The notes under the pieces were generated by a model, which made no database searches, had not been told where the DNA came from, and worked only from the letters and a program-made list of their open reading frames with translations. From Photobacterium angustum (GTDB lineage: Bacteria; Pseudomonadota; Gammaproteobacteria; Enterobacterales; Vibrionaceae), in assembly GCF_002954615.1 (NCBI RefSeq), contig NZ_MSCJ01000003.1, forward strand, positions 1,054,001-1,118,000: 64,000 nucleotides of DNA. The letters are read 5' to 3'. Shown here one piece after another: positions 18,576 to 30,380 of this stretch. The stretch's first letter is position 1. Each line of letters opens with the position of its first letter. Made by a program: the position numbers and the translations under genes.

Positions 18576-19139
18576 CTAAGCTGTCGAGTTATTTGGATCT
18601 TTATTTAAAATACGGAGTAACCATAAAAGATACGCCGATACCGCAAACCAGATCACTATCAGCACAAAGAATGTATCTAATGTTTCTAGCTGCCAAATTA
18701 CCGCACCTAATTTCATTCCAGACCAATAACTCAATGCACCGCCCAGACTGCCAGCCACCAGCAACCAATGTGTAGCAAAGCTAAAAATTGAGGTGCGTAA
18801 AACCCAAACAAAGGTTGTGAAACCCAACCAAAGCAATATAAGCCATGTTGGGATCAAACCAATACTCTCAACATTAAAGAAAAGTGGTGTTCGATTCGGT
18901 ATTGGAAAATCAAATACCTGCCAATGTCTGAGCATTGAATCGATCACAATACCGGGTATCGATGCTAATACAGAGAAACGCCACGCCTTAGATTCCATAA
19001 ACCATGTGGCTATTAGTATGAAAACCAAGATGTAACTAAAACGATATTGCCCCCAAACAGCGAGTAACCAATAGAAGTTAAACACCATACCGGCCAATAG
19101 TACTTTTAGTTTGTTTCCCAATGGATTTACTCTCTCCAT
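18576..19139 (-). CDS. DUF2878 family inner-membrane protein
   Basis: A 187-residue protein with about six hydrophobic segments (for example LLAGMVFNFYWLLAVWGQYR, LIPTWLILLWLGFTTF, FFVLIVIWFAVSAYLLWLL). It matches DUF2878, of unknown function, found in the same operon type in other proteobacteria. The start overlaps the end of the cfa-like gene by 13 nt, implying coupled translation. Confidence 0.82.
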   Translation of the reverse strand: MERVNPLGNKLKVLLAGMVFNFYWLLAVWGQYRFSYILVFILIATWFMESKAWRFSVLASIPGIVIDSMLRHWQVFDFPIPNRTPLFFNVESIGLIPTWLILLWLGFTTFVWVLRTSIFSFATHWLLVAGSLGGALSYWSGMKLGAVIWQLETLDTFFVLIVIWFAVSAYLLWLLRILNKDPNNSTA

Positions 19140-20374
19140 TGCGGGCGACTTGCGACAAATTGAATAGTACTAATGGTGCGCTCTAAGAAACCACCTTCGC
19201 AATAAGAAAAGTAAAAACGCCACATCCTCATAAACCTTTCGTCGTAGTTATATTTCTCTAATGCTACGGCATTCTCATTAAATTGCTGGTGCCAATCTTC
19301 AAGAGTTTTCGCATAATCTAAGCCAATATCTTTGATATCTCGCATCACGAAATCACTATGCTGTGTTAGATTTTCAAGCAATACGGTAATTGACGGTAAG
19401 AAACCACCAGGGAATATGTGTTTCTGAATAAAGTCGACACCACGGCTATAACTATCATAACGTTGGTCGGCAATTGTGATCGCCTGAATCGCCATTAAGC
19501 CAGTTGGTTTTAACAATGACTGGCACTTTTCAATATAAGTTTTAAGGTATTGTTTACCAACGGCTTCTATCATTTCAACCGATACTAGCTTATCGTATTG
19601 CCCCGTTAAATCACGGTAGTCGTCCATGAGTAAGGTAATACGATCGGATAGGCCTTCTTTTTCAACTCGCTCTTTAGCCCATAAATATTGTTGCTCAGAA
19701 ATTGTGGTAGTGGTGACACGGCAACCGTAATATTTCGCAGCATGAATAGCCATACCGCCCCAACCGGTACCAATTTCTAGTAAATGATCGTCTTCAGTCA
19801 ATTTTAATTTCTGACACAAACGATCCATCTTATTCCATTGTGCTTGATCCAACGTGTCATTTTTATTGAGGTAAATAGCCGAAGAATAAAGCATATTAGG
19901 ATCAAGAAAGTGACGATAAAGATCGTTACCAAGATCGTAATGTGCTGATATGTTTTTGCGCGCATTCTTAATGGTATTTTTACGCAGCAAGTGCCCAATC
20001 TGTTCGGAGATTCGACTCATCCAACCCATTTTTGCTTCTAGCTTATCTAACGTTGTCAGGTTCTTAGCCAAAACCCGTACTACATTGGTTAAGTTTGGTG
20101 AATCCCACCAGCCTTCCATATACGCTTCACCTGCACCAATACTGCCATCCGTCAGTAAGCGTTTATAAAAAAGCGGGTTATGGACATTAATACTCGCTTG
20201 TAGCGGTGCTTGTTTGTCACCAAAGAAGACGGTGCCTTCCGTTGAATCAGATACACTTAAGCCCGCATTAGAAAGGTGTTTTAATACTTTAAATAAAATA
20301 TGCCGAGATGCATGATCAGAGGCTGATACATTAACTGATGATGATTGTTGTACGTCGCTTCTAAGCATTGTCAT
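19127..20374 (-). CDS. cfa: Cyclopropane-fatty-acyl-phospholipid synthase family methyltransferase
   Basis: A 415-residue SAM-dependent enzyme that modifies unsaturated acyl chains of membrane phospholipids. Motif I is LEIGTGWGGMAIHAA; SAHYDLGNDLYRHFLDPNMLYS, SVEMIEAVG and FIQKHIFPGGFLPS are Cfa signatures. It overlaps the DUF1365 gene by 14 nt. A second ATG at 20368 has the better spacing from GAGG and may be the true start. Because it is embedded with SDR, FAD and DUF1365 genes, it may act like the UfaM-type methyltransferases of furan fatty acid synthesis rather than as housekeeping Cfa; that is inference. Confidence 0.9.
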   Translation of the reverse strand: MTMLRSDVQQSSSVNVSASDHASRHILFKVLKHLSNAGLSVSDSTEGTVFFGDKQAPLQASINVHNPLFYKRLLTDGSIGAGEAYMEGWWDSPNLTNVVRVLAKNLTTLDKLEAKMGWMSRISEQIGHLLRKNTIKNARKNISAHYDLGNDLYRHFLDPNMLYSSAIYLNKNDTLDQAQWNKMDRLCQKLKLTEDDHLLEIGTGWGGMAIHAAKYYGCRVTTTTISEQQYLWAKERVEKEGLSDRITLLMDDYRDLTGQYDKLVSVEMIEAVGKQYLKTYIEKCQSLLKPTGLMAIQAITIADQRYDSYSRGVDFIQKHIFPGGFLPSITVLLENLTQHSDFVMRDIKDIGLDYAKTLEDWHQQFNENAVALEKYNYDERFMRMWRFYFSYCEGGFLERTISTIQFVASRPQWRE

Positions 20375-21215
20375 TCCCTCGTTTAATCTTGTGTTTATTT
20401 ACTTTTTCATACGGTGTGTTATTTGGGTGATCATAAATTGGTACGCCTTTAATAAATAATTTAAGCGCTTGCCAATAAATACCTATAACAACCTTTATTG
20501 TCATAATCGGTGTAAGCAGTAATTGCTTGATAAGTATTGCAGATGTGAAGTTTTGCTTACGCATCTGCATGGTGGCATCAAATACTTTTTGATGGCTATT
20601 TTTCGAACCCCCCGAATGCCCGCTCGGAGAGATGCAATCTTTGTATCGACTCACAGCCAAGTTAACCAGCAAATTGCTATCAGGCTCTGTTAATCGCCAA
20701 TGATACTGTTGATGTATAGGGTTAAAAGGTGAAACATGAAACGCCTTATCATGACTATATTCACGCCCCTGCCAATATTGCGGGGCCGGTATCGCATAGT
20801 AATGACGTTCGTTCCAAGGTGTATTACTGACTTCAGCTAACATATATTGCCATTGACCTTCATCATCATGGAGGTAATACAAATTAAGAGGACTGAAATA
20901 CAATCCGCAATAACGTAAGTGACATAGCATAGTGACATTGCCATCAATCATTTTACCTGTTAGCGCATAGACCTTATCTTTTACAGCTTGTGCTAAATCA
21001 GGATCACCTTTTACGTAATCATCACGTCGAAATCGAGCGAAATTAAACAGTGATAATCCAAAGCCTTTTACTTGTTTATCCAACTGATCTAATTCATTTA
21101 AGTGGATATGGGGCATAAACATAGAATATGTGAATCTATGATCCACTGGTGTAAAACGTCGATGCCTAACCCATCCCTGAAAAATGCCGCTTTTAAGCTG
21201 ATTATCTTTCCCCAT
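20361..21215 (-). CDS. DUF1365 family protein
   Basis: About 284 residues with the DUF1365 landmarks SGIFQGWVRHRRFTPVDHRF at the N-terminus, LCHLRYCGLYFSPLNLYYL and the HVSPFNP block. A longer frame begins at 21263 inside the previous gene. The ATG at 21215, 1 nt after the FAD gene's stop, gives the family's usual N-terminus and suggests stop-start coupling. Function is unknown, but the gene is almost always beside a Cfa-like enzyme and a FAD protein, so a lipid role is likely. Confidence 0.85.
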   Translation of the reverse strand: MGKDNQLKSGIFQGWVRHRRFTPVDHRFTYSMFMPHIHLNELDQLDKQVKGFGLSLFNFARFRRDDYVKGDPDLAQAVKDKVYALTGKMIDGNVTMLCHLRYCGLYFSPLNLYYLHDDEGQWQYMLAEVSNTPWNERHYYAIPAPQYWQGREYSHDKAFHVSPFNPIHQQYHWRLTEPDSNLLVNLAVSRYKDCISPSGHSGGSKNSHQKVFDATMQMRKQNFTSAILIKQLLLTPIMTIKVVIGIYWQALKLFIKGVPIYDHPNNTPYEKVNKHKIKRGNDNA

Positions 21216-21216
21216 A

Positions 21217-22560
21217 CTAATAACTTCGTATGACACTTTTGTATGATGGTTCATGAGAAACATTCAGAGATTGTGCTGTTTGATCTTCACCTTCTGATTG
21301 TGTCAGTGATTGCATTTTTATCGCTTCAACAACATCTAACGCACTACGTACCCCGTCTTCATGAAAACCGTTATACCAATACGCTCCACAGAACCATGTT
21401 TGATTTTCTCCATTTATCAGATGACGTTTCTGCTGAGCCGCAATACTTTGAGTATTGAAAACAGGATGAGAATAAACAAATTTGCGCAGTATTTTGTCTT
21501 TATCTATCGATTCAGTTTGGTTAAGGGTTACACAAAATGTTTCAGGAGCTAGAATGCCTTGAAGTATATTCATGTTATAAGTCAGTGACGCTAAGTTACG
21601 TTCTCGAGCATCACGAGATTTAGGTAACGAATAATTCCAAGATGCCCATGCAGCCTGACGTTTTGGTAATAACGATGTATCGGTATGAAGAACCACTTCG
21701 TTTTCTTGATAATGAATATCTGATAACACGTAGTTTTCTTCTGATGTTGCGTCAGACAGCATTTTTAACGCTTGATCACTATGACAAGCGAAAATCACTT
21801 GATCAAATTCTTCTTGCTTAGTATTAACCGTAACAATTACCTTGCCTTTACTACGCTTCACCGAAGAGACAGGGCTATTTAGTTGAATACAATCTCCGAT
21901 ATAAGACATCATTTTTCTAACATATTCACGAGAACCACCCGGTATTACACGCCACTGTGGACGATTAGTTATGTCTAACAAACCATGGTTTAAGAAAAAA
22001 CGCAGAAAGAAAGCTAAGGGAAAACGCCTCATATCAGATAACGTTGAAGACCAAATAGCAGCCCCCATCGGTAAAATATAATTTTCAGCAAAGTAATCAC
22101 TAAACTGATGCTGAGTTAAAAAATCACCTAGCGTTTGATTCATTAACTCACTATCACCTACAACCTGTTTAGCAAGCTTATTAAACTGGGTGATCTCATA
22201 CAAAAAGCGATAAAAGGTCGGGTTCAATAAATTACGTTTCTGGGCAAACAGTGATGAAATAGTATGCCCATTATATTCAAGCCCCGTACGCTCATTGTGA
22301 ACACTAAAGCTCATTTCGCTTGGCTTACCTGTTATTTCAAGTTGTTCAAGCAAATTTTCAAAGTTTGGATATGTACGATCATTAAAAACAATAAACCCAG
22401 TATCGATGGCATAGTCACCACTATCTACGGTGACATCTACCGTTGCAGTATGCCCACCGACATAACTGTTTGCCTCATAAACAGTAACTTCGTGTTCTTG
22501 ATGTAAATACCAAGCGGACGTCAAGCCTGAAATACCGGAACCTATAATGGCTATTTTCAT
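21217..22560 (-). CDS. FAD-dependent amine oxidase-like protein
   Basis: A 447-residue flavoprotein. The N-terminal Rossmann motif IAIIGSGISGLTSAWYL and downstream GGHT block bind FAD. The C-terminal FAD-contact region reads GAYWYNGFHEDGVRSALDV. It belongs to the NAD(P)-binding amine-oxidase/phytoene-desaturase superfamily and is the usual partner of DUF1365 and Cfa. It could oxidise or desaturate the acyl chain; the reaction is not known. Its start codon overlaps the SDR stop codon by 1 nt. Confidence 0.85.
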   Translation of the reverse strand: MKIAIIGSGISGLTSAWYLHQEHEVTVYEANSYVGGHTATVDVTVDSGDYAIDTGFIVFNDRTYPNFENLLEQLEITGKPSEMSFSVHNERTGLEYNGHTISSLFAQKRNLLNPTFYRFLYEITQFNKLAKQVVGDSELMNQTLGDFLTQHQFSDYFAENYILPMGAAIWSSTLSDMRRFPLAFFLRFFLNHGLLDITNRPQWRVIPGGSREYVRKMMSYIGDCIQLNSPVSSVKRSKGKVIVTVNTKQEEFDQVIFACHSDQALKMLSDATSEENYVLSDIHYQENEVVLHTDTSLLPKRQAAWASWNYSLPKSRDARERNLASLTYNMNILQGILAPETFCVTLNQTESIDKDKILRKFVYSHPVFNTQSIAAQQKRHLINGENQTWFCGAYWYNGFHEDGVRSALDVVEAIKMQSLTQSEGEDQTAQSLNVSHEPSYKSVIRSY

Positions 22561-23288
22561 TATGATTTCCCCGTCATTCGTTTAATTACTGCCAATCGAA
22601 ATGTAATTGGCAAAAGCGCAATAGTTTTAAGAAACAGTGTAAAGGTGGCAGGAAAACTAATTTCTTTTTTTCCTGCAGCAATACCTGATCTTATTTTTTT
22701 TGAAGCATGTTCGGGTGACACTAACATTGGCATCGTAAAATCGTTTTTATCTGTTAATGGCGTTTTTACAAAACCAGGATTCACTAACGTAATTTTCATA
22801 TTCAAATAAGCGAGATCAACAGCAAGTGCTTGGGTGATATAACTCATTGCAGCCTTAGAAGCGCCATAGGCTTCTGCACGTGGTAAAGCAACGAAACTGG
22901 CAGAAGAACTGATAATGACTAAATGCGTTTTTTCATTAAATCGCGCTTGTAAGGCTTCTATGCAATGGAGAACTCCGTAAACATTGACATCAAAAACGCG
23001 TTTAACTAATGCTGTATCAATTTTTCCTTCATCAATGTATTCACACGTGCCGGCATTTAAAATAATTAACTCTGGTAGAGTCTCTAAGGATGTAAGCGCT
23101 GATAGTGTGCTTTCAAAATCTGTTACATCGAAACGTAATGTTTTTATCGCTTGATGTTCTTCTTCTAATTCATTTAAACGCTGCGCATTTTGACCGCAAG
23201 CAATAACACGCCACCCGTCATCTGCATAATCACATGCAAGCTGTTTGCCAATCCCTGAACTAGCACCTGTGATCAATACCTGATTCAT
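22560..23288 (-). CDS. Short-chain dehydrogenase/reductase
   Basis: A 242-residue SDR: cofactor loop TGASSGIGKQLA, LNAGT in the NNAG position, Ser at SSSAS, and YGASKAA holding the catalytic Tyr-Lys pair (YxxxK). NAD(P)-linked alcohol/carbonyl conversion is expected; the substrate is unknown. It overlaps the NTF2-like gene by 4 nt and the FAD gene by 1 nt. Confidence 0.88.
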   Translation of the reverse strand: MNQVLITGASSGIGKQLACDYADDGWRVIACGQNAQRLNELEEEHQAIKTLRFDVTDFESTLSALTSLETLPELIILNAGTCEYIDEGKIDTALVKRVFDVNVYGVLHCIEALQARFNEKTHLVIISSSASFVALPRAEAYGASKAAMSYITQALAVDLAYLNMKITLVNPGFVKTPLTDKNDFTMPMLVSPEHASKKIRSGIAAGKKEISFPATFTLFLKTIALLPITFRLAVIKRMTGKS

Positions 23289-23722
23289 TGCCCTAACCTT
23301 GATTTAATGTGTCGAATAATGCGTCCAAACATGGGTAGACCTTCATAAATCATTTCCCCCATATCGAAATAATCACGATGATAAATCACTTTATCTTGTT
23401 CAAATTTCAGCTGAGTACAGCCTTCTAAACTGCGTTCTTTGCCATTTTGTAATCGAGGATGTGAAAAGTGCATTGTCCATTGAACAAACGCTTCATGATC
23501 ATCTTCTACATAGCTATTAATAATAAATCGACAGCTATTTATATTTTGATAAAGGTTAAAAAAGTAAGCTTCTAAAGCACTAAAACCTTCAATTTTATGT
23601 GCAGGATCTTCAAAAATAACTAAATGATGATAAACGTCAGACAGTTGAGAGAGGTTGTCCTTTCCTAGTTGTCCATACACATTAAAAAACTTAATTAATG
23701 CAGGGTTTATCACTGCGTCCAT
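23285..23722 (-). CDS. Nuclear transport factor 2 (SnoaL-like) family protein
   Basis: A 145-residue protein of the NTF2-like fold (LSDVYHHLVIFEDPAHKIEG; FVQWTMHFSHPRL; HRDYFDMGEMIYEGLP). Members are small lipid- or polyketide-binding proteins or isomerases. It lies 20 nt after phrB and overlaps the SDR gene. It is a standard member of this operon type, with function unknown. Confidence 0.82.
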   Translation of the reverse strand: MDAVINPALIKFFNVYGQLGKDNLSQLSDVYHHLVIFEDPAHKIEGFSALEAYFFNLYQNINSCRFIINSYVEDDHEAFVQWTMHFSHPRLQNGKERSLEGCTQLKFEQDKVIYHRDYFDMGEMIYEGLPMFGRIIRHIKSRLGQ

Positions 23723-23742: not shown

Positions 23743-25212
23743 TTATTGATGAATATCCATATAAGCCTTTGCTTGTTTAAAAGACTCAATTGCGACTAGA
23801 CGGGCTTCCTTATGATCGACAATTGGCAATGGATAATTCAGTGATTCTGCACTCGCCCATTGATGCGGCGTGTGTATGTATTTATCCGGAACATGTTCTA
23901 ATTCCTTAACCCATGTACGGATGAAATCACCTTTTGGATCAAATCGTTGCCCTTGTAGTGTTGGATTAAATACTCTGAAATAAGGTTGTGCATCGGTACC
24001 TGTTGATGCGGCCCATTGCCAACCTCCGTTATTGGAAGCGAAATCACCATCAATGAGGTGCTGCATAAACCACTGCTCACCGACACGCCAATCACATAAC
24101 AAGTCTTTCGTTAGAAAACTTGCAGTGATCATACGTAAACGATTATGCATCCAACCTGTTGCACGTAATTGCCTCATAGCGGCATCGACAATAGGAAACC
24201 CCGTTTTTCCTTCTTGCCATGCTTTAAGTAATGTTGCGTCATCTTTCCATTTGACAAACTGAGTAAACTTTTGAAATGGCTGATGTTGGCTTAATTCAGG
24301 GTAGCGATGAAGTAAATGACCATAAAACTCACGCCAAACAATCTCGTTCAACCATGTGAAAGCGCCATCATCCTTATTAATCTCTAATGCATTTGGAAAG
24401 TGCTGCAATAGCTGATGCAAACACTGCCTAGCGGATAGCGCACCAATTGCTAGATAAGGAGATAAACAACTAGTACCATCAATAGCAGGAAAATCTCTGT
24501 TTTGGTGATATGATTCGGCTTTAGTTTCACAAAACGTTTCTAATCTTTGTGCAATAGTTTCTTCATCTACTGGCCATAACACACTATCGATAATGGGATA
24601 GTTGAAAGCTTTGATTTGATGACAGGCAGACAATAACTTAATCACCACGTCACTAGTTACAGTGTCACCCTTATTTGTTACAGGGTAACTAGGTGATAAT
24701 AAGAAACGCTTGATCCATGCATTTCTAAATGGGGTGAAAACTTTGAATAATTCCCCATCACGGGTCAAAACCATTTCAGGCTGCAAAATATAATTATCAT
24801 CAAAGATACTGAATTTTATAGTATTTTTTGCAAGCAATTCCCCTACAGCTATATCACGTTTATGCTCATTAATTGGATATTGTTTATTCGCAAAAACATG
24901 CACAGCATTATAATCAAAACAAACTTGCTCAATAACCTTAACCGATTCTGAGAAGTCATTAACTTCAATAACTTGCAAAGGAATATTTTGTTTAACCAAC
25001 TGTTGCTTTAATACTTGTAACCGACGATGAACAAAATCTACTTGAACTGCCGCCATATTATGTTGGTGCCACTGCATAGGCGTTGCAATAAAGAGTGCGA
25101 TGATAGGAAGTCCACTATCGATTGCATGATTTAATGCTGTATTATCAACAACACGTAAATCTGAACGAAACCAAATAATAACGTGCTGCTCTTTTACTGT
25201 TTTATTTGTCAT
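23743..25212 (-). CDS. phrB: Class I CPD deoxyribodipyrimidine photolyase
   Basis: About 489 residues. It uses blue light via FAD and an antenna chromophore to split cyclobutane pyrimidine dimers. N-terminal antenna domain IIWFRSDLRVVDNTAL; C-terminal FAD domain with WREFYGHLL, GKTGFPIVDAAMRQLRATGW, MHNRLRM, and WQWAASTGTDAQPYFRVFNP. GTG, ATG and ATG codons follow each other at the start; AGGAG is 5 nt before the third (25212), which I chose. It is second in the operon, 52 nt after the MerR gene. Confidence 0.95.
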   Translation of the reverse strand: MTNKTVKEQHVIIWFRSDLRVVDNTALNHAIDSGLPIIALFIATPMQWHQHNMAAVQVDFVHRRLQVLKQQLVKQNIPLQVIEVNDFSESVKVIEQVCFDYNAVHVFANKQYPINEHKRDIAVGELLAKNTIKFSIFDDNYILQPEMVLTRDGELFKVFTPFRNAWIKRFLLSPSYPVTNKGDTVTSDVVIKLLSACHQIKAFNYPIIDSVLWPVDEETIAQRLETFCETKAESYHQNRDFPAIDGTSCLSPYLAIGALSARQCLHQLLQHFPNALEINKDDGAFTWLNEIVWREFYGHLLHRYPELSQHQPFQKFTQFVKWKDDATLLKAWQEGKTGFPIVDAAMRQLRATGWMHNRLRMITASFLTKDLLCDWRVGEQWFMQHLIDGDFASNNGGWQWAASTGTDAQPYFRVFNPTLQGQRFDPKGDFIRTWVKELEHVPDKYIHTPHQWASAESLNYPLPIVDHKEARLVAIESFKQAKAYMDIHQ

Positions 25213-25264
25213 CATCACTCCTATTAGCTTATTAAAAGAATAATGCTGGTGGATCTTTTTACTT

Positions 25265-26056
25265 CTACTGCTTGTGGATCATTTTTATGCTTCCAATGAA
25301 AGAAACTTGAACATTGCTTTCTTTTTCTATTATTTCAATATCAGCTAACTGCTTATTATCAAGTTTGTTTTCTCCAACGATATAGACGTGGTTAATGTCA
25401 TGCTCTGTTATAAATGCTGACAATCCTGTTACTTTTCCTAATAAATCTGATAAAACAATCGCGTAATAACCTTCATACGCTAATTTTAAGGCCTGTTGCC
25501 ACACAAAGTGATTATCAGAAGATGAAAAACTCAACACGAGACTTCGGGGATTTTTATCTGAATTAACTTTCGCTAATACAGTAATAAAACATTGCGTAAG
25601 TGCTGAGTTCCACACACTTTTTTGTAATGTTTTTAATGGATTATCACTGCGTGTTATATGTTGCTCAATTGGCTTTAAAAATTGCTCTTCTAAAACATTA
25701 AATGGATAAAGTTTTAATGCTTCACGTACGCGTTTTTCTATTTGTTGTGCTTTACCCTGCTCGATTAAACAGATGGTTTCGTCAACCATTTCTATTTTTT
25801 CAACATTTAATTCATGATGTTCAGCAGTACCTTCTAATAAAGGTTTAACCTTACCAATTGATACTCCTTTGGCTAACCAAGTTAAAATTTCATGAATTTT
25901 AGCAATATCGCTATCGGTATAAAGACGGTGACCTTTAGGTGTTCGTTGAGGAACTAATAAACCATATCTGCGTTGCCAAGCACGTAAGGTTACAGAGTTA
26001 ACACCCGTAGCTTCAGATACTTCACTAATTGAATACAACTTAATTTCAACGTTCAA
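25265..26056 (-). CDS. MerR-family regulator of class II LitR type (B12-fold without B12 ligands)
   Basis: A 263-residue protein. N-terminal MerR winged helix YSISEVSEATGVNSVTLRAW, RRYGLLVPQRTPKGHRLYTD, then a helical linker and a C-terminal region resembling the cobalamin-binding fold. The DxHxxG cobalamin ligand motif of CarH/LitR class I is absent (SSSDNHFVWQQ occupies that region). This fits class II LitR proteins such as PplR1 of Pseudomonas putida, which act with a separate LOV photoreceptor; no LOV gene is in this window. Start is TTG at 26056 with AAGG 7 nt upstream. It heads the operon, downstream of two TGTACA-N12-TGTAYA operators, so autoregulation is likely. Confidence 0.82.
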   Translation of the reverse strand: MNVEIKLYSISEVSEATGVNSVTLRAWQRRYGLLVPQRTPKGHRLYTDSDIAKIHEILTWLAKGVSIGKVKPLLEGTAEHHELNVEKIEMVDETICLIEQGKAQQIEKRVREALKLYPFNVLEEQFLKPIEQHITRSDNPLKTLQKSVWNSALTQCFITVLAKVNSDKNPRSLVLSFSSSDNHFVWQQALKLAYEGYYAIVLSDLLGKVTGLSAFITEHDINHVYIVGENKLDNKQLADIEIIEKESNVQVSFIGSIKMIHKQ

Positions 26057-26112: not shown

Positions 26113-26136
26113 TGTACAACTGCTCTTTCATGTATA
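26113..26136. promoter_or_regulatory. LitR-type operator 1 (TGTACA-N12-TGTATA)
   Basis: Half sites at 26113-26118 and 26131-26136, exactly 12 bp apart, located 57-80 bp before the merR start. The pattern equals the T(G/A)TACA-N12-TGTA(C/T)A consensus I recall for class II LitR of Pseudomonas putida. Confidence 0.7.
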
Positions 26137-26159
26137 ACTATAGTGTTAAACCTCCAACT

Positions 26160-26183
26160 TGTACAATAATTTAATCTTGTACA
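26160..26183. promoter_or_regulatory. LitR-type operator 2 (TGTACA-N12-TGTACA)
   Basis: Half sites at 26160-26165 and 26178-26183, spacing 12 bp, 23 bp beyond operator 1. Only the merR operon starts from this gap, because metY ends at its other side, so both operators should serve merR-phrB. Confidence 0.7.
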
Positions 26184-26253
26184 AGATTGAAGTTAGAGTT
26201 GTATCACATCAAAAAAAGAGGTGGTGAGTAGTAATTCGAAATAAGCTAAGTAT

Positions 26254-26281
26254 TGTGGCAATCAAAATAATGATTGCCACA
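26254..26281 (-). terminator. Hairpin after metY, probable terminator
   Basis: Perfect 11-bp stem TGTGGCAATCA/TGATTGCCACA with a 6-nt loop just after the metY stop. There is no T run on the minus strand, so intrinsic termination would be weak. Confidence 0.5.
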
Positions 26282-26291
26282 TTGAAAAACG

Positions 26292-27560
26292 CTATGCGTT
26301 AAGTGCTTGTTCTAAATCAGCAATGATGTCATCAATATGTTCTATGCCGATAGAAAGTCTGATCATTTCAGGATGAACACCAGCTTGGCTCTGTTCTTCT
26401 GGTGTCATTTGTCGATGTGTGGTTGAGGCAGGATGACAAGCCAGTGATTTAGCATCACCAATATTCACCAACCGTTTAAACAAACCGAGTGCATCATAAA
26501 AACGAACACCTGCTTCATAACCATTTTTCAGTCCGAACGACAAGATAGCAGAGGGTTTACCCTTGGTATATTTTTGTGATAACTCGTAATAATCCGAATC
26601 AGGAAGACCAGCATAGTTAACCCAACTAACTTGGTCATGGTTAGCGAGATATTGTGCAACTTTAAGTGCATTTTCAGTATGTCTCTCCATGCGTAATGGT
26701 AAGGTTTCCAAACCTTGCATCAGCATAAACGCATTCATCGGAGACAGCGCAGCACCTGTATTTCTTAGTGGCACAGTTCGCGCTCTACCAATAAATGCCG
26801 CTTCACCAAACGCTTCATTATATACAACACCATGATAAGACGGTTCTGGTTGGCTAAATACAGGGAATCTATCTTTGTACTGTGCCCATGGAAATTTCCC
26901 TGAATCAACAATAACGCCACCTAATGTTGTTCCATGTCCGCCCACATATTTAGTCAATGAGTGAACAACAATATCAGCGCCAAATTCAATTGGTTTACAT
27001 AGCACAGGTGTTGCAACAGTGTTGTCGACGATAACAGGTACGCCTTTATCATGTGCTAACTGAGATACTCTTTCGAGATCAATGATGTTACCACTAGGAT
27101 TACCAATACTTTCACAATAGACCGCCTTGGTCTTTTCATCGATTAACGCAGCCATAGATTCTGGTTTATCATCTTTTGCAAACCGAACTTCAATCCCTTG
27201 GCTTGGTAACATATGAGCAAATAACGTATAGGTTCCGCCATAAAGTTGTGGTGTTGATACAATATTATCCCCTGCTTGAGCTAGGGTTAGAATCGCATAG
27301 TTAATCGCCGCGCTTCCAGCACTGACCACTAAACCCGCAATACCTCCTTCAAGCGCAGCCATACGTTTTTCTAATACGTCATTGGTCGGGTTCATGATAC
27401 GGGTATAAATATTGCCCGGCACTTCAAGATTAAAAAGATCAGCACCGTGCTGTGCATCATCAAACTCGTAGGCTACCGTTTGATAAATTGGTGTTGCGAC
27501 TGATTTAGTTGTCGGATCGGTTTCGTAACCACTGTGAATGGATAGCGTTTCGTCTTTCAT
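26292..27560 (-). CDS. metY: O-acetylhomoserine sulfhydrylase (aminocarboxypropyltransferase)
   Basis: A 422-residue PLP enzyme of the Cys/Met metabolism family that makes homocysteine from O-acetylhomoserine and sulfide. N-terminus LSIHSGYETDPTTKSVATPI, PLP region NPTNDVLEKRMAALEGG, PLP lysine in SLTKYVGGHGTTLGG, C-terminal LACHPASTTHRQ and IRLSIGIEHIDDI. AAGG precedes the ATG. It is monocistronic. It could also use O-succinylhomoserine, though the sequence looks MetY-like rather than MetZ-like. Confidence 0.9.
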   Translation of the reverse strand: MKDETLSIHSGYETDPTTKSVATPIYQTVAYEFDDAQHGADLFNLEVPGNIYTRIMNPTNDVLEKRMAALEGGIAGLVVSAGSAAINYAILTLAQAGDNIVSTPQLYGGTYTLFAHMLPSQGIEVRFAKDDKPESMAALIDEKTKAVYCESIGNPSGNIIDLERVSQLAHDKGVPVIVDNTVATPVLCKPIEFGADIVVHSLTKYVGGHGTTLGGVIVDSGKFPWAQYKDRFPVFSQPEPSYHGVVYNEAFGEAAFIGRARTVPLRNTGAALSPMNAFMLMQGLETLPLRMERHTENALKVAQYLANHDQVSWVNYAGLPDSDYYELSQKYTKGKPSAILSFGLKNGYEAGVRFYDALGLFKRLVNIGDAKSLACHPASTTHRQMTPEEQSQAGVHPEMIRLSIGIEHIDDIIADLEQALNA

Positions 27561-27687
27561 TTTTCTACCTTGAATAATTGAAAAGAATAATAAGTATACA
27601 GACTACATTTAATAATCTATTGATGTAGCCTAATGGTAATTTTAGTTCAACATATGGCGTTTATATCTTAAAAACCACAATACGTAT

Positions 27688-28641
27688 TTATAATGAATAA
27701 CGTAACTTCAATGCTTCAGGATAAGGCGCTAAATAAGCTTGTTTTGATAAATACTCATTAGGGTTTAATGCTAAATGATGATTGATGAGTGTTAACGGTG
27801 CGATTAATGGCAGGTTACCTTCACGATAGCGCATAATAACATCGCGTAATTCTGCTTTTTGTTGTTTATCTAAATTACGTTTAAAGTAACCTTGAATATG
27901 TAGCAGTACATTCGTATTCGTTTTGCAATTTGAACGATGCTTTAAACCGTCCATTAATAATTGACGATACTCTACAAAGAACGCATTAATATCGTTCCAT
28001 TGATGACTTTTAGCTAATAACTGACCAAGCTTACGGTACGTTGCTGGGTGGTTTGCCATCAACGCTAATTTATAACGAGCATGGAATTTCATTAATTTAT
28101 TACTCGTAATTCCGTCCTCACCTTTAATACTCTCATATAAATCATTAAGTGCATAAACCCGAAAAACAAAGTTCTCCCTTAATACGGGATCGCATAAGCG
28201 ACCATCTTCTTCAATCGGTAACCAAGGCATTTTCTGCATAAGGCGTTTAGTATAAATACCAACAGAACCACCAGGTACTGAGTGACCATTATCAAGATAA
28301 AGTTTAACTCGCTCCATACCGCAAGAAGGCGATTTAGCACATACAATGTAACCACACAGTGTTTCTAATGAAGGTAAAACCTTATCAGTAAATGCGTTCA
28401 TTTTATCCGTATAATCAAGCGTATTATCTTTACTATCAACTAAACGCACATCAATACTGTTATCCAATAAACGAATAACTGGACGTGGGATTGTCATGCC
28501 AATGCCAACCTCTGGACAAATAGGCTTGAACTCAAAATAATCACTTAATTCTTCGTCTGCGAATTTAAAACGCTTATGACCACCGTCAAAACGTACTTGT
28601 TGTCCTAAAAGGCAACCACTTATTCCTACTATAATCGCCAT
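27688..28641 (-). CDS. DUF523-DUF1722 fusion protein, copy B
   Basis: A 317-residue protein with DUF523 (GISGCLLGQQVRFDGGHKR; CAKSPSCGMERV) followed by a YbgA-like DUF1722 domain (HARYKLALMANHPATYRKL; YREGNLPLIAPLTLINHH). It is closely related to copy A 0.4 kb upstream. The conserved Cys suggest metal or Fe-S binding, but function is unknown. DUF1722 (ybgA) is next to phr in E. coli, so a link to photorepair is plausible. SD GGAG. It is probably the third gene of the operon led by copy A, though the preceding gap is 129 bp. Confidence 0.82.
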   Translation of the reverse strand: MAIIVGISGCLLGQQVRFDGGHKRFKFADEELSDYFEFKPICPEVGIGMTIPRPVIRLLDNSIDVRLVDSKDNTLDYTDKMNAFTDKVLPSLETLCGYIVCAKSPSCGMERVKLYLDNGHSVPGGSVGIYTKRLMQKMPWLPIEEDGRLCDPVLRENFVFRVYALNDLYESIKGEDGITSNKLMKFHARYKLALMANHPATYRKLGQLLAKSHQWNDINAFFVEYRQLLMDGLKHRSNCKTNTNVLLHIQGYFKRNLDKQQKAELRDVIMRYREGNLPLIAPLTLINHHLALNPNEYLSKQAYLAPYPEALKLRYSL

Positions 28642-28770
28642 AAATACTCCGTTGACGCTTAACCATATAAACCATAAAATTATTAGGGGTAATATTGCTA
28701 TAAAATAATATTGAATGTAATAATGCTGTAATGATTAGTTACATCTTTTCTATTAATAACATTGCTCACA

Positions 28771-29007
28771 TTATTTCCACCCTTGATGCCACAACGAAGT
28801 ATTTCTTAAATCTTGCCAATTAATTATAAATTCACGTTTAGACATTACTGCTTCCATCGTGCAATGCAGTACCTTACCTTCCTCGTTAATTTCAAGTTCA
28901 GTAATAATAAAATGTTTTTCTTTATTTTTAGGGACTGCAGCAGTCCACTTACTGTTTAACAACTTTTTAGGGTTGAATTGATTCACTATATTTACCCTTA
29001 ATTTCAT
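28771..29007 (-). CDS. TIGR02450-type small Trp-rich protein
   Basis: A 78-residue protein whose core FNPKKLLNSKWTAAVPKNKE, KHFIITELE, MEAVMSKREFIINW and WHQGWK match the small tryptophan-rich TIGR02450 family. Function is unknown; family members often lie beside photolyase or DUF1722 genes. It begins 2 nt after the stop of copy A, so it is translationally linked to it. Confidence 0.85.
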   Translation of the reverse strand: MKLRVNIVNQFNPKKLLNSKWTAAVPKNKEKHFIITELEINEEGKVLHCTMEAVMSKREFIINWQDLRNTSLWHQGWK

Positions 29008-29009
29008 TA

Positions 29010-29957
29010 TTACAATGAGAAACGAAGCTTTAGTTTTTCAGGGTAAGGAGATAAATATGCTTGCGTTGCAAGATATTCATCAGGGTTTACTGTTAAGTGA
29101 TGATTAATAAGTGTTAGCGGAGCGATTAAAGGAATATTTCCCTCACGATAGCGCATAATTACATCACGTAACTCTGCTTTTTGATCCTTATCTAAATCAC
29201 GCTTAAAGTAACCTTGAATATGCATTAACACGTTGGTGTTATTTTTACGGCTTGCACGGTTTTTCAGAGCGTCCATAAATTGCTGACGATAAGTTAAGAA
29301 GAACTCAATTAAGTCATCCCACTCATGAATTTTCGATACTAAGCGTCCAAGCGAACGATAAGACTCTTGATGATGTGCCATTAAGCAAAGTTTGTAACGA
29401 GAATGAAACTTAATGATTTTTCCTCGAGTAATACCACCGTCAACACTACGATAGAGGTCATCAAGTGCATAAACACGGAAGATAAAATTCTCTCGCAGTA
29501 CCGGATCACATAGTCGGCCATCTTCTTCAATAGGTAGCCATGGCATTGCTTCCATTAGACGTTTGGTATAGATACCAACAGATCCGCCTGGTACTGAGTT
29601 ACCATTTTCTAAATACAATTTAACTCGTTCCATACCACAAGAAGGTGATTTAGCGCACACCACATAGCCACGTAACCACTCAAAACTAGGTATAATTTCA
29701 TCGGCGAACGCCTTCATTTTATCTGTGTGATCAATAGCATTATCTTTACTATCAACAAGCCGTACTTCAATGCCATTATCTTGTAAACGGATCACCGGAC
29801 GCGGCGTAGACATCCCAATAGCCATTTCAGGACATACCGCTCTAAAGCTGAAGTATTCAGCTAAGTCTTCTGCTACAAAACGATTACGTTTATGCCCGCC
29901 ATCAAAGCGTACTTTCTCGCCTAATACACATGAACTGATTCCTACAGGGATACCCAT
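29010..29957 (-). CDS. DUF523-DUF1722 fusion protein, copy A
   Basis: A 315-residue paralogue of the 27688-28641 protein with the same order: DUF523 (GISSCVLGEKVRFDGGHKR; CAKSPSCGMERV) then DUF1722 (HSRYKLCLMAHHQESY). The frame opens at a TTG (29969), but the ATG at 29957 (MGIPVGISSC) has GGAGG 5 nt before it, so I chose that. It is the first gene of a light-type operon; a TGTACA-N12-TGTACA operator lies 16 bp upstream of the start. Confidence 0.85.
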   Translation of the reverse strand: MGIPVGISSCVLGEKVRFDGGHKRNRFVAEDLAEYFSFRAVCPEMAIGMSTPRPVIRLQDNGIEVRLVDSKDNAIDHTDKMKAFADEIIPSFEWLRGYVVCAKSPSCGMERVKLYLENGNSVPGGSVGIYTKRLMEAMPWLPIEEDGRLCDPVLRENFIFRVYALDDLYRSVDGGITRGKIIKFHSRYKLCLMAHHQESYRSLGRLVSKIHEWDDLIEFFLTYRQQFMDALKNRASRKNNTNVLMHIQGYFKRDLDKDQKAELRDVIMRYREGNIPLIAPLTLINHHLTVNPDEYLATQAYLSPYPEKLKLRFSL

Positions 29958-29972
29958 ACCCGCCTCCAAAGT

Positions 29973-29996
29973 TGTACAGTTATTTCTTGTTGTACA
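29973..29996. promoter_or_regulatory. LitR-type operator 3 (TGTACA-N12-TGTACA)
   Basis: Half sites at 29973-29978 and 29991-29996 with exact 12-bp spacing, immediately upstream of DUF523-DUF1722 copy A. Same motif as the two operators before merR-phrB, 3.8 kb away. Confidence 0.7.
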
Positions 29997-30021
29997 ATTA
30001 ATGTAGACAAATAGATCACCT

Positions 30022-30044
30022 TGTACAAGTTTTTTTATTGTATA
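30022..30044. promoter_or_regulatory. LitR-type operator variant (TGTACA-N11-TGTATA)
   Basis: Half sites at 30022-30027 and 30039-30044, one base short of the usual spacing, 25 bp beyond operator 3. It could be a second, weaker site for copy A, or a site for the divergent 62-residue protein gene. Confidence 0.45.
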
Positions 30045-30191: not shown

Positions 30192-30380
30192 ATGAAATTA
30201 AGAAAAGATAAAAGATGCTATACCGATCTTTGTATTAACGGTAAATGGTTCCATCATGATCACTGCACAAATACGGCTTATATGCTGAAAGGACGTGATT
30301 CTCCTCTATTAGAATTGGCAAGAATACCGCAAACAGAGAGTGAGCTTATTGGACTGCTAGAGGAAGCAACATTAAATTAA
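30192..30380 (+). CDS. Small Cys/His-rich protein, unknown function
   Basis: A 62-residue protein starting MKLRKDKRCYTDLCINGKWF then HHDHC, a cluster of three Cys and three His in about 20 residues that could bind a metal. The C-terminal half is an acidic helix (SPLLELARIPQTESELIGLL). A perfect AGGAGGTG ribosome-binding site precedes the ATG and a terminator follows, so it is very likely expressed. It is divergent from the DUF523-DUF1722 operon. The family is not recognised. Confidence 0.7.
   Translation: MKLRKDKRCYTDLCINGKWFHHDHCTNTAYMLKGRDSPLLELARIPQTESELIGLLEEATLN

Follow-up and report, generated by a model that had tools for sequence, protein, structure and literature searches.

Two transcription units on the minus strand of the Photobacterium angustum stretch analysed here (64,000 nucleotides of contig NZ_MSCJ01000003.1, in the following called the window) carry copies of the same spaced motif in front of their first genes: one encodes a LitR-like MerR regulator, a photolyase (Phr) and a series of lipid-related genes, the other two DUF523-DUF1722 proteins (here RudS1 and RudS2) and two further genes. 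The locus thus raises the question of how two units came to share an operator, and to which signal the regulator presumed to act on it responds. We consider it likely that they represent a light-stress operon of the Vibrionaceae that was split in two, that kept its operator in both halves, and that is repressed by LitR and relieved of this repression by light.

The operator TGTACA-N12-TGTAYA is found in exact form at 26113-26136, 26160-26183 and 29973-29996 of the window (five strand matches at three places, two of which are palindromic), and a variant TGTACA-N11-TGTATA at 30022-30044; all four positions given in an earlier note on this DNA proved correct on re-scanning. In 100 shuffles of the window, the pattern was matched 0.07 times on average and at most twice. 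Lone TGTACA is not enriched (20 observed, 22.7 expected), so the signal resides in the spacing. Throughout the genome (4,885,981 bases), the exact N12 pattern occurs at just three places, all in the window, against none for the reversed-pattern control; if N11 or N12 is allowed, there are five exact places, four of them in these two promoters and one at C1:1172977 (control: one match). A relaxed search of the whole genome (TRTACA plus one mismatch) yielded 42 places as compared to 50 in the control, i.e., no excess; within this genome, weight can therefore be given to exact sites only, and a regulon widened by one-mismatch sites was rejected. Across 52 genomes of the genus, the N12 pattern gave 54 forward and 52 reverse matches, as opposed to 10 and 11 in the control. 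Concerning the N11 copy, a near-identical relative (G246) possesses N12 at this place, with a homopolymer run one base longer, and since the family uses both spacings, the copy in the window looks genuine. That the operator is real and shared by both promoters is confirmed; its binding by the regulator is predicted.

The family survey comprised 197 genomes, of which 124 contained a LitR homologue (cut-off E 1e-12) and 185 a RudS homologue (cut-off E 1e-30). Loci were compared from 107 of the 119 LitR-positive genomes outside the window's own clade, picked for RudS and LitR being listed close together, and from 25 of the 61 genomes with RudS but without LitR (185 minus 124), namely those for which the place of RudS was listed. 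The operator, for which TGTACA-N11/12-TGTACA was sought in the 350 bases preceding RudS and one mismatch was tolerated, is present in 100 of the 107 LitR-positive loci (71 exact), which bears out the conservation upstream of orthologues on which the earlier note had made its regulon depend, whereas it is found in none of the 25 LitR-negative loci, 14 of which belong to one genus. Across the examined genomes, operator presence depends on regulator presence: LitR presence differs in four independent supported pairs of the RudS tree (six on all branches), and the operator co-varies with LitR in 3.9 of the 4 supported pairs on average. Two sites are found in 64 of the 107 loci and in three of the four own-clade relatives, and in all these 67 cases the starts of the last two sites are separated by 45-51 bases. 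The exact form is found with N11 in 45 and with N12 in 42 of the 107 RudS promoters; other spacings from 8 to 16 occur 0-2 times each (expected values for spacings, and likewise for the sigma-E-type motifs below, were obtained from mononucleotide shuffles).

RudS, LitR and Phr are consecutive on one strand in all 107 fetched LitR-positive Vibrionaceae loci, an order that is partly a matter of choice because these loci were selected for RudS and LitR lying close together; the gap between RudS and LitR, taken from alignment ends, has a median of -8 and ranges from -8 to 297. The 80 named LitR loci, which were not chosen for proximity and partly overlap the 107, have RudS upstream on the same strand in 80 of 80 and Phr downstream in 78, and the operator with at most one mismatch is present in 78 of them (exact in 64). 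At the LitR-negative loci, Phr follows 5-112 bases after RudS in 24 of 25, the remaining stretch being without a Phr match. Judging from this gene order, RudS-LitR-Phr most likely forms one operon, which would be ancestral, with the promoter before RudS.

Among the loci examined, the arrangement RudS1-Trp-RudS2-metY with a second operator before LitR is found only in the own clade (the window, G246, G171, G256 and G266), and metY is situated between RudS and LitR nowhere else. The LitR promoter of this clade aligns, some upstream flank included, with the RudS promoter of G254 (probably P. leiognathi) and of P. lucens, and the RudS1 promoter of the clade also aligns with these two; both comparisons are alignments without a statistic. 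Apparently, the two operons of the window are halves of one ancestral operon that was split by a second RudS gene and metY, and they would have the operator in common because both promoters appear to descend from one. Thus, of the single light regulon proposed in the earlier note the shared operator persists, but the joining of two independent units gives way to two halves of an ancestral RudS-LitR-phr operon. RudS2 as a recent copy was rejected, as it branches beside the group formed by RudS1 and the RudS of G254 and G232 (FastTree, support 96); the RudS duplication therefore seems to predate the split within that group. The resemblance of the two promoters to copies of one is also what would be expected if the shared motif were due to chance or to mere common descent, without current function. 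This explanation is scarcely credible, as the hexamers and their spacing are kept while the flanks differ across the family, spacings besides N11 and N12 give hardly any exact match, and none of the examined genomes without LitR has the operator.

The layout of both promoters is in accordance with a repressor. At the predicted LitR core promoter (26137..26166, minus strand; TTGTAC at 26166-26161, 18 nt, TATAGT at 26142-26137), operator site 1 (26160..26183, exact and palindromic) overlaps the predicted -35, and site 2 (26113..26136, TGTACA-N12-TGTATA) follows immediately after the predicted -10; a scan for consensus promoters reported TGTACA-17-TATAGT here, with 9 of 12 matches. At the predicted RudS1 core promoter (30000..30028, minus strand; TTGTAC at 30028-30023, 17 nt, and the weak -10 TACATT at 30005-30000, with 4/6 matches), which is absent from the sites of that scan, a half-site of site 1 (30022..30044, the N11 copy) doubles as predicted -35. 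Site 2 (29973..29996, exact TGTACA-N12-TGTACA) starts 3 bases past the predicted -10, over or after the predicted transcription start and upstream of the ATG. A strong sigma-70 promoter was rejected, the -10 matches being weak and the scan giving 15 sites against 21.7 in shuffles. Across the family, the second half-site of site 1 with its preceding base reads TTGTA in 95-100% of the rows and the next base is C in 61-100%, frequencies that are biased towards the motif because the sites were picked by best match. This TTGTA sits 16-18 bases before the best -10-like hexamer, which agrees with TATAAT in at least 4/6 positions in 25/38 Photobacterium, 8/20 middle-group and 28/44 Vibrio rows (without shuffle control), and site 2 is situated at or beyond the predicted transcription start, ahead of the start codon. 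In the footprint of PmlR2 at the P6650 promoter of Pseudomonas mendocina, site 1 lies over the -35 and site 2 between transcription start and ATG (PMC9758184; here and below, articles are cited by PubMed Central number).

Repression by occlusion would be the simplest mechanism. We propose that the LitR-like protein binds the paired TGTACA-N11/12-TGTAYA sites at both promoters, with site 1 covering the predicted -35 and site 2, 47-49 bp downstream, covering or following the predicted transcription start. In the dark, LitR would repress both promoters, its own included; blue light would lift the repression, with one promoter driving the photolyase and the lipid genes and its counterpart driving RudS1, the Trp-rich protein and RudS2. 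The two RudS enzymes would then strip 4-thiouridine (s4U), a near-ultraviolet chromophore that crosslinks tRNA, while the photolyase would repair DNA.

Concerning the enzymes, both DUF523-DUF1722 proteins consist of a TudS domain (PF04463) fused to DUF1722 (PF08349). RudS1 (29010..29957, minus strand) is read from the ATG at 29957 behind GGAGG, which we prefer over the listed TTG at 29969; its paralogue RudS2 (27688..28641, minus strand) is 72% identical to it. The three cluster cysteines and four further residues listed for RudS in PMC11417400 (Cys17, Cys49, Cys114, Glu51, Arg60, Ser111 and Ser113 in RudS_KT numbering) are all present in both. Within a set of 142 rows, Ser113 is replaced by Thr in 106, and the other six residues are invariant. 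From the stretch Arg24-Tyr25-Asn26, which is likewise named as important in RudS (PMC11417400), only Arg is kept, the third place being D in 142/142 and the second F in 141/142 rows. A homologue of ThiI, the s4U synthase, was found above cut-off in this genome. RudS1 and RudS2 are therefore probably tRNA 4-thiouridine erasers, as judged from domains and residues. Light-induced erasure as such is not new here, because PMC11417400, in which RudS is described to remove s4U from tRNA, already proposes it with LitR and PhrB in Pseudomonas.

The regulator (25265..26056, minus strand; TTG start, at the place of which G254 has GTG) is 99% identical to that of Photobacterium sp. GB-56, 94% to that of P. 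angustum ATCC 25915 and 93% to that of SKA34, and 68% to that of P0003, which is named P. leiognathi by one source. In Pfam it matches only helix-turn-helix models (PF13411, MerR-type N-terminal helix-turn-helix), and its C-terminus diverges fast among homologues. Five classes of LitR are distinguished by the C-terminus (PMC9758184): class II keeps a 4-helix B12-binding domain (with a match at E 1.1e-05 in PmlR2), and its member PmlR2 has a short LOV protein as partner; class IV, mainly from Vibrio, lacks the B12-binding domain, and its function is listed as unknown. The earlier note had assigned the regulator to class II and equated the pattern with the operator of class II LitR of P. putida. 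The pattern indeed equals the published Pseudomonas LitR consensus (PMC9758184), the site bound by class II LitR being T(G/A)TACA-N12-TGTA(C/T)A; the class label, in contrast, was not upheld, as the regulator has no Pfam match to B12-binding_2 at E 0.1 or better (a degenerate domain could escape detection) and the LOV motif was found in two 20-amino-acid frames of the genome only. The lack of a B12-binding domain and of a LOV partner in these searches, together with the Vibrio-type distribution, suggests that it fits class IV better than class II. A class I LitR/CarH or another B12-type LitR was rejected: there is no B12 domain in Pfam and, apart from H261 near the end, which is present in 21 of 26 rows, no well-conserved C-terminal histidine, the others being present in at most 6.

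The helix-turn-helix is nearly identical to that of E. coli MlrA and BluR, and MlrA is also the best match in NCBIfam (99 bits, well under the cut-off of 417). For the site of MlrA, PMC9662190 has AAAATTGTACA(12N)TGTACAATTTT, whereas PMC3509220 has AAAGTTGTACA(12N)TGCACAATTTT; the BluR footprint holds GTACA repeats (PMC3509220); an exact TGTACA-N11/12-TGTAYA was not found in a 4,001-base stretch of E. coli bluR/ycgZ. Since an operator of this type is common at least to MlrA, the operator alone is no sign of light control. The regulator might accordingly be of MlrA type and respond not to light but to another signal, be it oxygen level, growth phase or reactive oxygen species, with photolyase and RudS being targets for another reason. 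Besides the likeness to MlrA, this explanation draws on VCA0056 of Vibrio cholerae, which is activated by Fnr under anaerobiosis (PMC9662190), on the role of this protein being credited to reactive oxygen species (PMC5241685), and on the lack of any light sensor in searches of this genome for B12 domains, the LOV motif and BLUF. We nevertheless regard it as unlikely: the family also includes the light-controlled BluR and LitR, a V. cholerae strain mutated in both chrR and merR is blind to light (PMC5241685), the genes targeted are concerned with light damage, and in LitR-less lineages sigma-E/ChrR-type motifs are found at the same operon, in one of them with an adjacent ChrR pair.

Light induction of both units in this organism is likely, to judge from operon content, the LitR of Pseudomonas and the blue-light genes of V. 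cholerae. V. mimicus and V. metoecus, which are close to V. cholerae, carry RudS-LitR-Phr with two exact N11 sites, so that VCA0055 is probably RudS. Blue light raises the expression of VCA0056 and VCA0057, and VCA0055 is among 21 blue-light genes checked by quantitative reverse-transcription PCR, the direction of its change not being apparent from the available portion of PMC5241685. The cry1 cry2 phr triple mutant of V. cholerae still responds, and no other photoreceptor is reported there (PMC5241685).

Several observations weigh against light relief of LitR repression as proposed here. Partners with a BLUF or a LOV domain were both rejected for this genome by domain and motif searches: it contains no BLUF protein (such proteins are found in 37 of the 124 LitR-positive genomes, and in 0 of 45 LitR-positive genomes of the genus) and no NCRFLQ pattern, and the two matches to [ND]CRFLQ are both frames of 20 amino acids, although LOV domains with variant motifs would escape. 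The regulator itself has neither a B12 domain in Pfam nor, save H261, a well-conserved C-terminal histidine. The response of V. cholerae is credited to reactive oxygen species and not to a photoreceptor (PMC5241685), VCA0056 is described as an Fnr-activated anaerobic virulence activator that binds a different 18-bp motif (PMC9662190), and the motif of the window is shared with MlrA, a non-light regulator. Seven of the 107 LitR-positive RudS promoters (L206, L221, L227, L233, L267, L268 and L269) have no site at one mismatch or less, and the absence of the operator from all LitR-negative loci amounts to few independent events (sign test p 0.125, which with so few pairs cannot reach 0.05). Across the family, the LOV motif occurs in 63 of 197 genomes; of 30 loci translated, only that of the Photobacterium G281 (L122) gave a plausible LOV frame, an open frame of 985 codons from stop to stop with a LOV-like motif.

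A second regulatory input became apparent at the RudS promoters. The motif TGAWC-N16-18-CGT, which follows the sigma-E motif given in PMC5241685, is found in 18 of the 25 LitR-negative RudS promoters (0.08 expected) and in 14 of the 107 LitR-positive ones (0.74 expected); TGATC-N15-18-CGTA with at most one mismatch in 20 of 25 (2.4 expected) and 55 of 107 (12.8 expected), respectively. The sigma-E-type motif is thus over-represented with and without LitR, and to a greater degree in the LitR-negative group. TGATC by itself is present in 45 of the 107 LitR-positive RudS promoters (15 expected), and in all five clade members it lies between the two RudS1 sites (30018-30014 on the minus strand of the window), where it perhaps represents a second sigma input. 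In the LitR-negative Photobacterium G268 (L363:1869-3168), genes for an extracytoplasmic function (ECF) sigma factor and a ChrR anti-sigma factor (TIGR02451, 191.6 bits, cut-off 124.5) are divergent from RudS-phr, and in the likewise LitR-negative Photobacterium G167 (L362:246-1575 after reversal) the same kind of pair was recognised by eye one gene away; in the other 10 of 12 LitR-negative upstream regions read, the nearest two or three open reading frames considered did not include a pair of this kind. For Photobacterium profundum 3TCK, an ECF sigma factor gene divergent from a phr cluster has also been reported (PMC4019646). In some lineages, the operon has thus apparently passed from one regulator to another, and this speaks for RudS taking part in the defence against light no matter which regulator is in charge.

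On these grounds, a ChrR/ECF sigma factor responding to photo-oxidative stress might be the main driver also in the window, with LitR only damping its effect. The TGATC of the five clade members and the enrichment in LitR-positive promoters would fit; the RudS1 promoter of the window, however, has TGTA in place of the CGTA of the motif, and TGATC is missing from the LitR promoter, such that we hold this explanation for quite improbable.

On the minus strand, the first half is transcribed in the order RudS1, Trp-rich protein, RudS2 and metY. The small Trp-rich protein (28771..29007; profile match to DUF2389 / TIGR02450) occupies the same place behind RudS also in G254 and G232, and the metY-type O-acetylhomoserine sulfhydrylase (26292..27560), a putative member of the unit, is situated between RudS2 and the LitR promoter. 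In all five clade members, metY, as a sulfide-assimilating enzyme, adjoins two enzymes expected to release sulfide from s4U; its place beside the RudS genes may be coincidence or serve sulfide recapture. Divergent from RudS1, the window contains an open reading frame of 62 amino acids (30192-30380, plus strand) without Pfam or NCBIfam match; relatives of it occur in G246 and G256, in G171, where the frame is split, and in G183, there too in divergent orientation to RudS.

The second half continues on the minus strand from LitR to the deoxyribodipyrimidine photolyase (23743..25218; NF007955, 633 bits, cut-off 506), the profile matches of both bearing out the pairing of a MerR regulator with a photolyase stated in the earlier note. 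There follow a SnoaL-like protein (23285..23722), a short-chain dehydrogenase (22560..23288), a flavin amine-oxidase-like protein (PF01593, 21217..22560) and a DUF1365 protein (20361..21263), all by Pfam. A cyclopropane-fatty-acid-synthase-like methyltransferase (PF02353 profile match, 19127..20374) resembles Pseudomonas ufaM in its position in the gene order (gene list in PMC9758184). A DUF2878 protein (Pfam, 18576..19139) and a chalcone-isomerase-like protein (PF16036, 18006..18566), probably the last gene of the run, complete this half.

The organization found here is most readily compared to the regulon of class II LitR and short LOV proteins in Pseudomonas (PplR1-3, PmlR2; PMC9758184), which has the same operator TGTACA-N12-TGTAYA, the same two-site layout and similar targets, i.e., photolyase, short-chain dehydrogenase, flavin oxidoreductase and ufaM (PMC9758184) as well as RudS (PMC11417400). 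Despite this similarity, the window differs in having no B12-binding_2 match, no short LOV protein found, a split operon, two RudS genes and N11 spacing in addition. VCA0055-VCA0057 of V. cholerae likewise comprise a MerR regulator adjoining a photolyase and up in blue light (PMC5241685), whereas they are expected to be unsplit, and the available text of that article contains no TGTA-type motif. The RudS desulfidase of tRNA s4U (PMC11417400) shares architecture, catalytic residues and the association with LitR and photolyase, but two paralogues are present here, and Arg24-Tyr25-Asn26 is R-F-D in nearly all Vibrionaceae rows. With E. coli BluR/BluF and MlrA, the regulator shares a nearly identical helix-turn-helix and GTACA-type sites (PMC3509220, PMC9662190), whereas this genome has no BLUF protein and the targets are different. 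The ECF sigma-E/ChrR response, finally, seems to have taken the place of LitR at RudS-phr in part of the LitR-negative lineages; unlike the promoters of that response, the LitR promoter of the window has no such motif.

In a literature search, with most subscription papers outside reach, neither the operator and operon across the Vibrionaceae for class IV LitR nor the LitR dependence, the two-RudS split and the sigma-E/ChrR swap were found described, and on DUF523 with photolyase nothing was found besides the RudS paper (PMC11417400). As a tentative and rather doubtful generalization, class IV LitR might be the repressor of a Vibrionaceae-wide light-stress operon led by an s4U eraser; it might sense light without B12, LOV or BLUF, via its own fast-evolving C-terminal domain or through a partner so far unrecognised, for which the iron-sulfur protein RudS, whose gene lies directly upstream of LitR, would be a candidate, and an ECF sigma factor with ChrR might take over where LitR was lost. 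If this were true, s4U erasure would permanently belong to the defence against light, irrespective of the sensor.

With these results, a regulator of the Vibrionaceae gains a candidate operator, a promoter layout and a target operon, the function of class IV LitR having been listed as unknown in 2022 (PMC9758184). The blue-light sensor behind the MerR protein of V. cholerae was not found in the study concerned (PMC5241685), and the question becomes testable in a marine Photobacterium. A probable eraser of a tRNA modification is placed first in the operon, such that it also becomes testable whether cells erase 4-thiouridine on purpose, ahead of near-ultraviolet damage.

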